Shown here: positions 6,100 to 33,039 of the stretch, in pieces
Position numbering within the stretch: the first letter of the stretch is position 1
How the letters are laid out: each line of letters begins with the position of its first letter
Source of the DNA: Pseudomonas synxantha
GTDB lineage: Bacteria; Pseudomonadota; Gammaproteobacteria; Pseudomonadales; Pseudomonadaceae
Direction: 5' to 3'
DNA: 64,000 bases
NCBI RefSeq assembly: GCF_900105675.1
Contig: NZ_LT629786.1
Span: 5,642,001 to 5,706,000 of the forward strand
Position numbers and translations under genes: made by a program
Notes under the pieces: generated by a model
The model's input: the letters and a program-made list of their open reading frames with translations, nothing else
Database searches by the model: none
Told to the model about the DNA's origin: nothing

Positions 6100-8240
<2,141 letters not shown>

Positions 8241-29518: not shown

Positions 29519-29953
29519 CTATCTCTGATCAAGGCTAGCCAAAAAATCTTCCACTTTGACCAGCAATACCGTCGCGCTATCGATCAACTGGCTTAGCAGG
29601 GCCTCATCCTCATCCATATACCCTTCGTATTCCGCCAGGTTGCGACGCTCATGACACAACGCCAACAACCGCACCTGCACCTTGCTCGCGTCGAGGGTGT
29701 GAACCAGACATTTAAAGACCAGATAGCGTTTGTCAGAACGATAGCCTTGCAAGCGCAAAGCCGTGAGGGCGATAGCATGGGCGGCGTTGTAAGCCAGATC
29801 GAAACGGCTGGCGAATGATAGCTGTGGGGTCGCGGCGTCCTTCAATCGATCACGAGCTGAACGCATCAGCCCGTCACACTCCTTGCGATCCGGCGGCTCA
29901 GCCTTCAAGCCACCACTACGTTGCAGATTCTCCAGGTTTGCCTTGCTGTCCAT
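29519..29953 (-). CDS. HEPN-domain protein (putative HepT-like toxin)
   Basis: 144 residues, all-helical, of the HEPN type: LSFASRFDLAYNAAHAIALTALRLQGYRSDKR (about 45-76) is the conserved helix pair, and CHERRNLAEYEGYM (100-113) is the terminal motif. Canonical HEPN RNases carry Arg-x(4-6)-His; here Arg104 is followed by Tyr109, and the His (His101) lies before the Arg. RNase activity is therefore uncertain, although the Tyr could be an AMPylation target as in HepT. The gene overlaps the 3' end of the nucleotidyltransferase gene by 38 nt, the standard arrangement of HEPN/MNT toxin-antitoxin pairs. Confidence 0.72.
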   Translation of the reverse strand: MDSKANLENLQRSGGLKAEPPDRKECDGLMRSARDRLKDAATPQLSFASRFDLAYNAAHAIALTALRLQGYRSDKRYLVFKCLVHTLDASKVQVRLLALCHERRNLAEYEGYMDEDEALLSQLIDSATVLLVKVEDFLASLDQR

Positions 29954-30545
29954 CCGTGGATTCCAGGGGGTTGCCCCCTAACAGATTGATCTTGTCCTGC
30001 TGCACTACCCGCTGCACGAAACTGTTCCCGGCATTCCATTTACCGATCCAGTCTTCAGGGGTGTACAGCGTCGGGTTGATGGTGCGACCCAGTTGCTCTT
30101 CCAGCGGCATGAGTTGCTCCATGACTTCACTGTAGTTGAGGCTTTGACCGATCAGCATCAGATCTATGTCACTGGATGAGTGCGCCTCACCCTTGGCGAT
30201 GGAACCGTAGATAAACGCCCAGGTGATCTGCTCGGCAAACGGTGCCAGTGCATTGCGCAATGGCTCGTCCAGGCTCAGCGTCTTGCGCACGATAGCCAAC
30301 AGTTCCGAGTAAATCGGGCACTGAGGGTTGGCTTGGTAGTGAGTCTGGTTGCCTTGGCGCGTCATGTTCAAGATGCCCGCCAACTGCAAACGCTCCAACT
30401 CTCGGGTGAGGCTACCCTTACCCACCTGGGCCCACCGGGCAATTTCATTGGTGAAAAAGCTTTGGTCGGGCTTGCCGAAAAGCAGGCCCAGCACTTTTTG
30501 CTGGGTGACCGTGAAGAGCGCAGTACTGAGCGGCAAGGTGTGCAT
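29916..30545 (-). CDS. Winged-helix/minimal nucleotidyltransferase fusion (MntA-like antitoxin)
   Basis: 209 residues. Residues 10-75 form a winged helix-turn-helix (QQKVLGLLF, then TNEIARWAQVGKGSLTRELERL and a wing at GILNMTRQGNQTHY). Residues 105-190 are a minimal nucleotidyltransferase with Gly114-Ser115, ten residues, then Asp126-Ile-Asp128, i.e. the GSx10DxD motif of MntA proteins that AMPylate HepT toxins. Most MntA proteins lack the DNA-binding part. The ATG at 30545 is used, but it has no good SD. A TTG four codons upstream (30557) sits 5 nt after GGGA. A nested palindrome directly upstream is a plausible self-operator. Confidence 0.75.
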   Translation of the reverse strand: MHTLPLSTALFTVTQQKVLGLLFGKPDQSFFTNEIARWAQVGKGSLTRELERLQLAGILNMTRQGNQTHYQANPQCPIYSELLAIVRKTLSLDEPLRNALAPFAEQITWAFIYGSIAKGEAHSSSDIDLMLIGQSLNYSEVMEQLMPLEEQLGRTINPTLYTPEDWIGKWNAGNSFVQRVVQQDKINLLGGNPLESTDGQQGKPGESAT

Positions 30546-30561
30546 GGCAGCGGCCAATGAG

Positions 30562-30595
30562 TCCCAAAAAGGGAACGATAGGTCCCTTTTTGGGA
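30562..30595 (-). promoter_or_regulatory. Nested palindrome, candidate operator of the MNT/HEPN pair
   Basis: TCCCAAAAAGGGA (30562-30574) and its exact complement TCCCTTTTTGGGA (30583-30595) form a 13-bp inverted repeat with an 8-nt centre. Each arm is itself a TCCC-N5-GGGA dyad, so the site offers two half-palindromes. It lies 16 bp before the nucleotidyltransferase ATG and 11 bp after the DUF6124-type gene. Confidence 0.6.
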
Positions 30596-30606
30596 ACGAT
30601 CAAGTT

Positions 30607-30846
30607 TTAAGCCGCTGAGGAGGGGGATATCTGTTCCAGTGCTTGATCCACCAATAGCTGTCCTATCTCTGCCATTTGCTGAATCCCGAGCATGACGGCG
30701 CGCTGGGAAGTGTCCAGGTCGAAAGCCAGGTTGCAGGTGAGTGCGTTGAGGGAGGACAGGGTTTCGCTGGCGTTGACCAGCAGGGTTTCGGTGTTCTGGT
30801 GGGGGTTTACGGTGAAAAGGGGTGGATTGGGGGTAGGTTTGATCAT
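30607..30846 (-). CDS. Small DUF6124-type protein
   Basis: 79 residues: a Pro/Asn-rich start (MIKPTPNPPLFTVNPHQNTETLL) followed by one long amphipathic helical stretch (ASETLSSLNALTCNLAFDLDTSQRAVMLGIQQMAEIGQLLVDQAL). No signal peptide or membrane helix. I recall similar small proteins, filed as DUF6124 or DUF3077, in several copies per fluorescent Pseudomonas genome, but no function is known to me. GGAG lies 9 nt before the ATG. The leader carries an elaborate RNA structure. Confidence 0.7.
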   Translation of the reverse strand: MIKPTPNPPLFTVNPHQNTETLLVNASETLSSLNALTCNLAFDLDTSQRAVMLGIQQMAEIGQLLVDQALEQISPSSAA

Positions 30847-30852
30847 GATTTA

Positions 30853-30985
30853 CAGCTCCGATATGTGATGGAAGCTGCCCTCTTCCGCTTGCACGCGAAT
30901 CAAGGTGGCAGCTGTGCGCAGGTGTGCAAGACCGGGCATATCGGACCCCGGCAGACTCCGAAGAGTCTCCCACGCACAGCCGCCA
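30853..30985 (-). promoter_or_regulatory. Structured leader RNA with riboswitch-like alternative pairings
   Basis: On the minus strand a 13-bp helix (30985-30973 with 30918-30906, one G-U) closes a junction holding two hairpins: GACTC-TTCG-GAGTC (30967-30954) and CCGGG/CCCGG (30951-30932). The 3' arm segment AGCTGCC (30913-30907) can instead pair perfectly with GGCAGCT (30879-30873). The overlapping segment CAGCTTC (30877-30871) can pair with GGAGCTG (30859-30853), which contains the Shine-Dalgarno of the DUF6124-type gene. The three options are mutually exclusive in the way expected of a translational switch. These pairings are read from sequence; the regulatory role is inferred. Confidence 0.55.
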
Positions 30986-31004
30986 TAACGAGTACAGCAG
31001 GCAT

Positions 31005-31035
31005 AAAAAACGCCCGTTGAATGGCTATGGGCGTT
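31005..31035 (-). terminator. Rho-independent terminator on the minus strand
   Basis: AACGCCC (31009-31015) pairs with GGGCGTT (31029-31035) around a 13-nt loop, and on the minus strand six T follow. No gene ends just before it. It therefore marks the 3' end of a non-coding transcript or an attenuator ahead of the structured leader. Confidence 0.75.
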
Positions 31036-31140
31036 GGTGCGCCGACATGTAACCGGACTTGCACGTCCGTGTCACCGTTTTTTGCGATGACGGGACGAAG
31101 ACTAGGCGTGCGGACCTCTCACCACAAGTTCATGCGCGGC
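31005..31140 (-). ncRNA. Possible small RNA ending at the 31005-31035 terminator
   Basis: Upstream of the terminator on the minus strand lies a hairpin CGGAC-GTGCAA-GTCCG (31069-31054), extended by TGTC/GACA pairing (31073-31070 with 31047-31044). No reading frame of interest overlaps it. The right-hand end is a guess, as no promoter could be fixed. Confidence 0.25.
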
Positions 31141-31146
31141 CCAAAA

Positions 31147-31414
31147 TCTTGCAGGAAAAATCCGAAGCCTTTTATGTCGAAGGGCGTGCAGGAAGTTTCA
31201 TACAGCGTTTTGGGGTTGTTGCTTGGAACTGGTCCTTCTAGCCTTCGCGGTTGAATGCCCATAGTCGAAGGACGTACCAACATGCCGATGCACAACCCAC
31301 CTCACCCAGGTGAAATATTGCTTGAAGATGTGATTCCTGCCTTGGGCATTACCATTACCGAGATAGCATGACTGCACGGTGAGCAGCGTCCAGGTCGAAG
31401 TCTTGCAGGAAAAA
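31147..31414. repeat. 14-bp direct repeat bracketing the HigA stub
   Basis: TCTTGCAGGAAAAA occurs at 31147-31160 and again at 31401-31414, followed by the related strings TCCGAAGCC and CCCGAGCCC. The second copy belongs to the nhaA terminator region. The segment between, which includes the higA remnant, may have arrived or been trimmed by recombination between short repeats. Confidence 0.5.
31282..31371 (+). pseudogene. higA: Truncated HigA-type antitoxin
   Basis: The 29-codon frame MPMHNPPHPGEILLEDVIPA... then LGITITEIA ends in TGA. The first 29 residues match the well-conserved start of HigA/VapI antitoxins (M-x-NPPHPGEIL-x-E-D), but the helix-turn-helix that should follow is missing, and no HigB toxin frame is recognisable upstream. 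It is a decayed toxin-antitoxin remnant. Confidence 0.7.
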
Positions 31415-31454: not shown

Positions 31455-32801
31455 TCAGGCGCGTTTGCGCTGGGCCCAACCCCAACTCAAGCCCAGCAAG
31501 GCCGCCAGGCCGGAAGCGCACAGCACGCTCAGTTTGGCGGCGGACAGCAGGCTGGCATCGTTGAACGCCAGCGAGGCGATGAAGATCGACATGGTAAAGC
31601 CGATACCCGCCAGCAAACCGACCAGCACCACGCCAGACCACGTCACACCCTGTGGCAATTGACACAACCGCGACTTGACCAGCAACCCGCAAGCCAGGAT
31701 GACGCCGACCGGCTTGCCCACCACCAAGGCCAGGATCACTGCGATGAAGACGTGCTGCGACATCCCTTCGTCGAGGTTCGCGCCGGCCAGGTTCACCCCG
31801 GCGTTGGCCAGTGCGAACAACGGCATGATGCCGAACGCCACCCAGGGGTGCAGCGCGGTCTGGATACGTTGCACGGGCGAGAGCATTTCGCGCTGCGCCT
31901 GGCGTATCTGTTTGAGGGGTTGATGCACCGCCTGCGGGTCGTGGCCCTTTGCAGAAAACTTGTCGACCAGTTCGTGGAAGTTGCGCTGCAGGCTTTCCAG
32001 CGGTCGCTCACGCATCGGCATCGAGCGCACCGGGCTCATCAGACCGAGCAGCACGCCGGCCAGCGTGGGGTGTACGCCGGTCTTGAGCAGGCCGTACCAG
32101 ACGATCGCGCCTGGCAGGATGTACAGCGCCGTCTTGCTGATCCCCATGCGCTGGAACAACAGCACCATCAGCACCCCGCCCAGGGCAATTACCACTCCGC
32201 TCAAATCGAGGCTGGCGGTATAGAACAGCGCAATGATCAGGATGGCGACGATGTCATCGATAATCGCCAGGGCCAGCAGCAGAATGCGCACGCCGCCGGG
32301 AATGGACTTGCCCAGCAACGCCAGTACGCCCACCGCAAAAGCGATGTCCGTTGCGGTCGGCACGGCCCAGCCATGGCTGGCCTCGGTGCTGTGGTTGATC
32401 GCCAGGTAAATGAGGGCCGGTACCACCACGCCCCCCAAGGCCGCGCCCAGCGGCAAGATGGCCATTTTGAAGCTGGCCAAGGCACCGTCGTGGATTTCCT
32501 GGCGTATCTCGGCGCCCACCACCAGAAAGAAAATCGTCATCAGGCCGTCGTTCACTAAAAAGTGCAGCGACCTGGACACACTCCACTCGCCAAAGCCCAA
32601 CGTTATCTGGGTATGCCAAAGGTGTTCATAGCTGGCGGCATAAGGGCTGTTGGCCCAGGTAAGGGCGACCAGGGCCGCCACCAGCAGCGCGATGCCGCTG
32701 ACCGCTTCGATATGGGAAAACCGCTCCAGCGCGGACAGGGCACGCTCGGCTAAGACTTGCGGACGGGGAATGGCAGACGAGAGCGGTTTTTTTCCAGGCA
32801 C
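31455..32801 (-). CDS. nhaA: Na+/H+ antiporter NhaA
   Basis: About 448 residues, longer than E. coli NhaA (388 aa). Twelve membrane helices are predicted. [14 protein letters not shown] carries the Asp-133-type residue and [16 protein letters not shown] the two adjacent Asp (E. coli 163-164) that bind Na+ and H+; [15 protein letters not shown] is the conserved end of the transporter. A hydrophilic loop of about 60 residues ([20 protein letters not shown]...) in the second half is unusual. The GTG at 32801 follows GGAG by 7 nt and is preferred; a TTG at 32849 would add 16 basic residues but has no SD. Confidence 0.92.
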
Positions 32802-33039
32802 TGGCTGACTCCGATGGCGGCCCGACCAACGCTTGAATTTAACCTGCAATGCGCGACACGCGACACAGCACCCGCGGCGATGATATGAAGCCGAGGCAGC
32901 GGATGCAAACCCTATGCGGCGTCTTTAATCCCCTCTGGCGTCTGCGCCGCTTCATCAGCCACGGATCACAGATGGTAAGGTTGGGCAGCGACGGCCATTG
33001 ATGGCGGCTCTTTCCCTTACTTTTCATCTCCGAGGTTCC

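Follow-up and report, generated by a model that had tools for sequence, protein, structure and literature searches.

C4 antisense RNAs (Rfam RF01695) were described in phages P1 and P7, where the target is the ant antirepressor operon and RNase P yields an RNA of ~77 nt. After processing by RNase P, the b' loop of C4 partly covers the ribosome-binding site (RBS) and a' gives specificity (PMC5320573). In the IsrK-orf45-anrP system of the Salmonella prophage Gifsy-1, IsrK is a short RNA that ends at a terminator located upstream in one transcript with its target. It acts in trans to activate the read-through mRNA, and access to the RBS of that mRNA depends on alternative pairings (PMC4825925). 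The CI RNA of phage P4 is likewise processed and pairs with flanking complementary sites in its transcript, seqA and seqC, but acts through transcription termination (PMC4825925). C4 antisense RNA is listed in Proteobacteria and phages (PMC2864571), and the motif was earlier predicted in Pseudomonadales (PMC5320573). The Group 1 C4-like RNAs of A. baumannii are expressed, apparently processed at a GG motif, and present in many chromosomal copies per genome with variable a'/b' (PMC5320573).

We analyzed a 64,000-nt stretch of Pseudomonas synxantha DNA (hereafter the window), in which an initial annotation had described a riboswitch-like leader of no described RNA class at 30844-30985, upstream of a DUF6124-type gene. 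This presumed riboswitch proves to be a C4 antisense RNA of the phage type, a known class, and the locus is very probably a chromosomal C4-type antisense cassette, akin to P1/P7 c4 and to Salmonella IsrK, that controls the DUF6124 gene. Its order is promoter, a1b1 hairpins, terminator, C4, a leader holding a2 and b2, and the small DUF6124 gene, all on the minus strand; coordinates below are minus-strand positions of the window unless noted.

The locus resembles P1/P7 c4 in RNA fold, Rfam family, a'/b' pairing around the downstream RBS, and a1b1-like sites upstream. It differs in being chromosomal and present in dozens of copies, in serving mostly DUF6124/DUF3077 genes instead of ant, and in having b' loops that differ between paralogues and occur in two versions at one locus. 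With IsrK-orf45-anrP it shares a terminator-ended upstream RNA, a read-through mRNA with a hidden RBS, and alternative pairings, but IsrK activates an antirepressor gene via a coupled ORF (PMC4825925), whereas here a single DUF6124 gene would, by analogy, be activated. The likeness to P4 CI RNA is drawn from its description in PMC4825925. Targets of the A. baumannii Group 1 RNAs are not established in the cited part of PMC5320573, while here a matched target lies just downstream. Since the same source states that C4 had been predicted in Pseudomonadales and reports many C4-like RNAs in one A. baumannii genome, neither fact is new. We found no report in the open-licence literature that links C4 to DUF6124 or DUF3077; the term DUF6124 was absent from it, and DUF3077 occurs in a single paper, PMC9630843.

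Identity and fold of the leader RNA

RF01695 matched 30901-30990 at full length (positions 1-87 of 87) and scored 65.9 bits (threshold 45), both in the scan of the whole window (E 1.5e-10) and in a local scan, where it was the top match. The local scan (cmscan, 30500-31300, E up to 1) returned only C4, isrK, and c4-a1b1 in the leader and no known riboswitch family. A match to a known family of different function, which the initial annotation had itself named as an argument against its novel switch, was thus found.

Every element listed in that annotation is present on the minus strand at the spacings given. Its UUCG hairpin (30953-30968), CCGG(G) hairpin (30931-30952), and closing helix (3' strand 30907-30922, containing the AGCUGCC swap strand) are the three C4 stems. 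The closing helix is real and covaries, but it had been given as 13 bp, whereas the Rfam C4 model has 17 positions for it. We counted pairs, without phylogeny, in 106 Pseudomonas C4 copies: 28 from the window's genome, 50 from a second genome (G049), and a non-random 28 from other genomes, each the top-scoring copy of its genome. Pairing was kept in 1763 of 1802 closing-helix cells, and in 90 cells both partners departed from the most frequent pair. A folding result for a 261-nt stretch (z -1.87, energy unexceptional) was obtained with the plus strand and has no bearing on the minus-strand leader.

The loop and junction strand that would make up the proposed sensing site correspond to b' and a', the antisense elements of C4. 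They hold no conserved ligand-binding core; both vary between paralogues and follow their targets. With the Rfam match, this led us to reject an unknown-ligand riboswitch. Among the partners first considered (ligand, protein, or sRNA), RNA is the likeliest.

Upstream unit

A sigma-70-type promoter is predicted at 31099-31127 (TTGTGG 31122-31127, TAGTCT 31099-31104, 17-nt spacer). A TTG-N19..21-TANNNT promoter occurred within 200 nt upstream of 93 of the 106 C4 copies, compared with ~10% of shuffles. Downstream of it, a terminator-ended a1b1/IsrK-like RNA of ~87 nt is predicted at 31005-31091, where isrK (RF01394) scored 28.4 bits in the local scan, below its curated threshold of 50, so that the window sequence does not qualify as an IsrK member; c4-a1b1 likewise remained below threshold at 31050-31105 (25.6 versus 46.7 bits). 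Among 80 related loci, c4-a1b1 exceeded its threshold in 20 and isrK in one (L199, 53.4 bits). The sequence between a1b1 and C4 contains an intrinsic terminator-like hairpin followed by a T-run (31005-31035), and a strict perfect-stem terminator was present in 31/106 C4 copies versus 1/530 shuffles. The sub-threshold isrK and c4-a1b1 matches indicate that the unit reaches beyond 30844-30985, an interval that includes the leader and omits the promoter, a1b1 hairpins, and terminator (31005-31127).

The sequence GGACGTTTCCNAGANAATCC had nine exact occurrences in the window's genome, each just upstream of a cassette (eight C4 cassettes and the DUF gene at 5361910). A tenth place matched with two mismatches and the reversed control had none. 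It may be the site of a dedicated regulator.

Antisense pairing

The junction strand a' (CUUGCAC, 30924-30930) is a perfect complement of both a1 (GUGCAAG, 31058-31064), which lies in a hairpin loop, and a2 (GUGCAAG, 30888-30894), placed within the a2 hairpin (30883-30899) by sequence and fold and supported by permutation tests. The apical loop of the CCGG hairpin, b' (UCCGAUAUG, 30937-30945), is a perfect complement of b2 (CAUAUCGGA, 30857-30865), which overlaps the Shine-Dalgarno (SD) sequence (b2/SD region 30853-30865), and pairs with b1 (CAUGUCGG, 31042-31049) with one G-U pair. In the window, the 7-bp a'/a2 and 9-bp b'/b2 pairings thus lie around the RBS of the downstream gene. The strongest of them, b'/b2, was absent from the initial annotation.

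We compared summed duplex energies of cognate C4-leader combinations with those of 20,000 permutations within a genome. Using all 28 C4 copies of the window's genome, including two without a small target gene, b' against its cognate leader summed to -376.9 kcal/mol (permuted mean -257.3, sd 11.3, best -303.1) and a' to -264.2 (permuted mean -209.2, sd 9.2, best -250.1). G049 has 55 C4 matches, of which the 50 best-scoring were used. Cognate sums there were -640.7 for b'/b2 (permuted -463.1, sd 14.9), -478.4 for a'/a2 (-366.4, sd 11.8), -647.0 for b'/b1 (-529.4, sd 13.5), and -723.2 for a'/a1 (-497.2, sd 14.4), and 0/20,000 permutations reached any of the four. The cognate leader ranked first by summed energy for 15/28 copies in the window's genome and 12/50 in G049: the specificity of pairing is statistical, not absolute.

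Sequestration of the Shine-Dalgarno and the swap pairing

The mid-leader element GGCAGCUUCC (30870-30879) can pair with either the C4 3' strand or the SD. It covers both strands described initially, the anti-SD strand CAGCTTCC (30870-30877) and GGCAGCT (30873-30879), the latter 27 nt from its swap partner AGCTGCC (30907-30913). The anti-SD target GGAGCTG (30853-30859) contains the SD GGAG (30856-30859), which ends 9 nt before the ATG starting at 30846.

The prediction of a structured leader for translational control, in which anti-SD pairing covers the SD, held beyond the window. Among 67 of 78 leaders (those with an ATG start 38-70 nt after C4), the mean probability that the SD is unpaired was 0.236, whereas shuffling of the upstream leader raised it to 0.423; the native leader gave the lower value in 52/67 (p 2.3e-8). 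This supports the anti-SD half of the proposed switch, and the leader therefore looks off by default. Adding C4 in cis left predicted SD access unchanged (0.233 versus 0.236; 67 leaders). When C4 and leader were folded together, the minimum-energy structure contained the C4 fold, the a2 hairpin, and the SD hairpin side by side, so SD sequestration is independent of the closing helix.

The C4 3' strand paired with the cognate mid-leader better than with permuted ones in the window's genome (-391.2 versus -357.8, sd 9.4, best -398.5) and in G049 (-702.3 versus -653.2, sd 14.5, best -717.3), a signal of ~3.5 sd in each, with a few of 20,000 permutations reaching the cognate value. The 5' strand of the closing helix, used as control, gave no cognate signal in either genome. 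The swap onto GGCAGCU-like elements is probably real, yet much weaker than the antisense pairings.

Distribution and gene content of C4 cassettes

The window's genome has 28 C4 and 22 DUF6124 matches. Among 59 sampled Pseudomonas genomes, C4 was found in 54 (up to 54 copies under a stricter filter), DUF6124 in 47, and DUF3077 in 45, and the five C4-free genomes had neither family. C4 number correlated with the number of DUF6124 plus DUF3077 genes (Spearman rho 0.93, n = 59; the few genes matching both families counted twice). In a sample of the order, which holds few Pseudomonas, C4 occurred in 20/145 genomes, with at most six copies each outside the genus, and DUF6124 only in the window's own genome.

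The initial annotation mentioned similar leaders before related genes in other pseudomonads. This was borne out: of the 80 named loci, 74 had C4 immediately preceding DUF6124 (20, 14, 20, and 20 per set of 20), although close kin are over-represented, as these are the best 80 of 407 relatives of the window's protein, and L205 is counted as having C4 although its gene stretch has stop codons. Five of the six exceptions (L157, L160, L162, L163, and L164) keep the promoter and a1 hairpin with no recognizable C4; neither part was seen in the sixth, L165. Three DUF genes without C4 in the window's genome (at 4743406, 5361910, and 6478392) likewise retain an a1-type hairpin in their leaders, along with a promoter-like stretch. 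C4 is thus dispensable in some relatives, where it was lost and the promoter and a1 hairpin were kept. Conversely, two of the 28 C4 copies in the window's genome have no recognizable small target gene.

Behind the 106 C4 copies we chose 104 ORFs, two copies having none. Sixty were DUF6124, 10 DUF3077, and five Bro-N (a phage antirepressor domain), and PHROG antirepressor families matched the C4-led Bro-N proteins. Grouped by similarity, the 104 ORFs formed sets of 70, 11, 11, and 6 plus six singletons, one of which (L017) was counted through an ORF frame that has since been replaced by another. The C4-led gene of L114 (427-939, minus strand, in G049) joins a DUF6124-like N-terminus (MIKVTPNPP) to a Bro-N-like antirepressor domain; this MxKxTPNPP start, typical of DUF6124, points to a possible evolutionary link. 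At L053, L054, L055, L060, L063, L066, L067, L070, L073, L079, and L080, C4 leads another gene of ~52-57 aa, and several of these genomes have a DUF3077 match ~500-700 nt from C4, so the short gene is possibly a leader ORF before DUF3077. ORFs flanking the scanned cassettes included many ordinary chromosomal genes and no structurally named PHROG family.

Address diversity among paralogues and orthologues

Similar target proteins did not share addresses. Among paralogue pairs with proteins at least 60% identical, 0/146 shared a b' loop (0/9 in the window's genome, 0/137 in G049), and a' was identical in 7 and 10 pairs, respectively. Mean pairing energy in these pairs was -13.9 cognate versus -7.6 cross-wise in the window's genome and -13.4 versus -9.2 in G049. 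The tandem copies 2880900 and 2881664 have proteins 98% identical, C4 stems 97% identical, and unrelated loops. Overall, a loop 8-mer was common to 2/378 C4 pairs within the window's genome and 16/1225 within G049.

We aligned 30 C4-bearing orthologues: that of the window and those of the 31 loci L131-L161 except L157 and L160, which lack C4; L162-L210 were likewise left out. Similarity of the downstream mdcA supports assigning most of them to one locus. Here, b' was UCCGAUAUG in 20 and UCCUAAACAG in 10; b2 fitted b' in 30/30 and b1 in 29/30 (L155 being unrecognized), while a1, a', and a2 were near-constant. On an mdcA tree of the 25 loci with an mdcA stretch (six of type II; 7/22 inner branches well supported), the two b' types needed five changes, at least three of them forced by well-supported branches, and their clustering did not exceed that of shuffled labels (mean 5.5 changes).

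We searched 298 Pseudomonas genomes for the two core sequences, counting places; the type II core occurs with either G or T after the loop. The type I core was present in 30 genomes (31 places) and the type II core in 28 (28 places), each almost always once per genome. Three genomes hold both, where independence expects ~2.8, and nothing indicates that one address type excludes the other.

The target gene and its protein

The target gene (30607-30846) encodes 79 aa and is of the DUF6124 type, as first read (PF19619; Pfam 101 bits, cut-off 27). An AlphaFold2 model from a 43-row alignment predicts a two-helix hairpin (mean pLDDT 82.3, pTM 0.64). A structure search with the model gave no match at E 0.001 or better. 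The first-ranked PDB entry, the T6SS immunity protein Tsi2 (E 0.43), and the best match in a viral library (E 0.042) were both non-significant, and a two-helix hairpin resembles many things. In a profile search of PDB sequences, the best match to DUF6124 was an unrelated enzyme (E 0.019). The C4 control shared with Bro-N genes weakly suggests that DUF6124 is an antirepressor-like partner-binding protein. PAAR and S-type pyocin genes lie near two DUF6124 cassettes of the window's genome, and PAAR near a DUF3077 cassette (L003, L009, and L041).

Residence of the DUF6124 gene on phages or plasmids was unsupported. DUF6124 had no match in plasmid records at E 1e-3. Among phage records, EU982300 alone matched at E 1e-2, with the hit at the extreme end of the record, next to a prtR repressor. 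One DUF3077 protein searched had no match in phage records, and the two a'+b' core sequences had no exact match in viral contigs.

Several other features of the window were recorded. A nucleotidyltransferase (Polbeta, PF18765) and its partner (29519-30557, minus strand) match the PADLOC candidate defense models PDC-M05A and PDC-M05B; the pair adjoins the cassette in some orthologues and is missing in others. Rfam matches above threshold in the whole window include an SAH riboswitch at 6703-6809 (plus strand, 66.4 bits) and an nhaA-I RNA at 32812-32873 (minus strand, 42.4 bits) just upstream of the nhaA gene (31455-32849). A short plus-strand frame (~31283-31372) reads MPMHNPPHPGEILLEDVIPALGITITEIA and then a stop, presumably resembling the start of a HigA-type antitoxin.

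Proposed mechanism and alternatives

By analogy with P1/P7, C4 would be cut from the transcript by RNase P, dock on the a2 and SD hairpins, and hold translation off, perhaps also in trans. The position and complementarity of the a1b1 region match an activating or decoy role; the short terminator-ended RNA would, as IsrK does, compete for a' and b' and turn translation on. As a release step, the C4 3' strand may switch its pairing to the mid-leader element, which would expose the SD. Differing b' loops would allow separate control of paralogues. This reading draws on the above-threshold Rfam match with its covarying closing helix, the cognate sums that beat 20,000 permutations, the joint switching of b' and b2 in 30/30 orthologues, C4 preceding DUF6124 in 74/80 loci, the correlated copy numbers (rho 0.93), and SD sequestration by the leaders. 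The Bro-N antirepressor genes behind C4 (5/104 ORFs) are as expected of a phage-derived control element. Against it stand the sub-threshold a1b1 and isrK matches in the window and strict terminators in only 31/106 copies, the cognate leader ranking first in just 15/28 and 12/50 copies, the lack of any effect of C4 in cis on SD access, the loss of C4 in some relatives, and the two of 28 own copies without a recognizable target.

The swap signal and the significant SD hairpin would also suit a switch acting only in cis, in which the C4-like junction is the sensor of a ligand or protein, swapping of the closing helix to the mid-leader frees the SD, and any action in trans is incidental. We consider this highly improbable: the RNA belongs to a known antisense family, its loop and junction are the variable parts that follow the antisense targets and offer no conserved core, and the ~3.5-sd swap preference seen in two genomes, which a few of 20,000 permutations reach, is much below the antisense signals. 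A small gene behind a default-off leader, with an antisense RNA over its SD and near-identical tandem copies with unrelated b' loops, could alternatively be a toxin, with harmful DUF6124 and C4 as the RNA antidote in units like type I toxin-antitoxin systems. In usual type I systems, the antisense RNA is not on the strand and transcript of its target, whereas C4 is on both; the modelled protein is a soluble-looking helical hairpin with no significant fold match, and genes that lost C4 persist, all of which makes this unlikely. That the cassettes are decaying relics of phage antirepressor cassettes, without present function, has hardly any likelihood. The description of C4 in phages P1/P7, the two own copies lacking a small target gene, and the loss of C4 at some loci fit decay, but many species retain promoter, pairing elements, and reading frames jointly, tens of paralogues still pair best with cognate partners as a set, and the scanned flanks hold many ordinary chromosomal genes and no structurally named PHROG family.

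Implications

Extending the antisense cassette reading to its origin is tentative, and we hold the following account to be doubtful as a whole. In Pseudomonas, a phage immunity RNA may have given rise to as many as ~55 antisense switches across a chromosome, each with its own address and most of them serving a single small DUF6124/DUF3077-type gene, with b1, b', and b2 exchanged as a unit between versions common to species, like heteroimmunity types. DUF6124 proteins, silenced by a self-recognizing RNA and released on address mismatch, could in that case descend from phage antirepressors or have replaced them.

DUF6124 and DUF3077, Pfam families of unknown function, gain a defined candidate control mechanism, which suggests that their genes are switched off by default. 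The targets of other C4-like RNAs, such as those of A. baumannii Group 1, may likewise sit immediately downstream. Near-identical proteins with unrelated b' loops offer a natural experiment on the divergence of RNA specificities. If the proposed control is true, single genomes of these pseudomonads would contain unusually many paralogous antisense switches.
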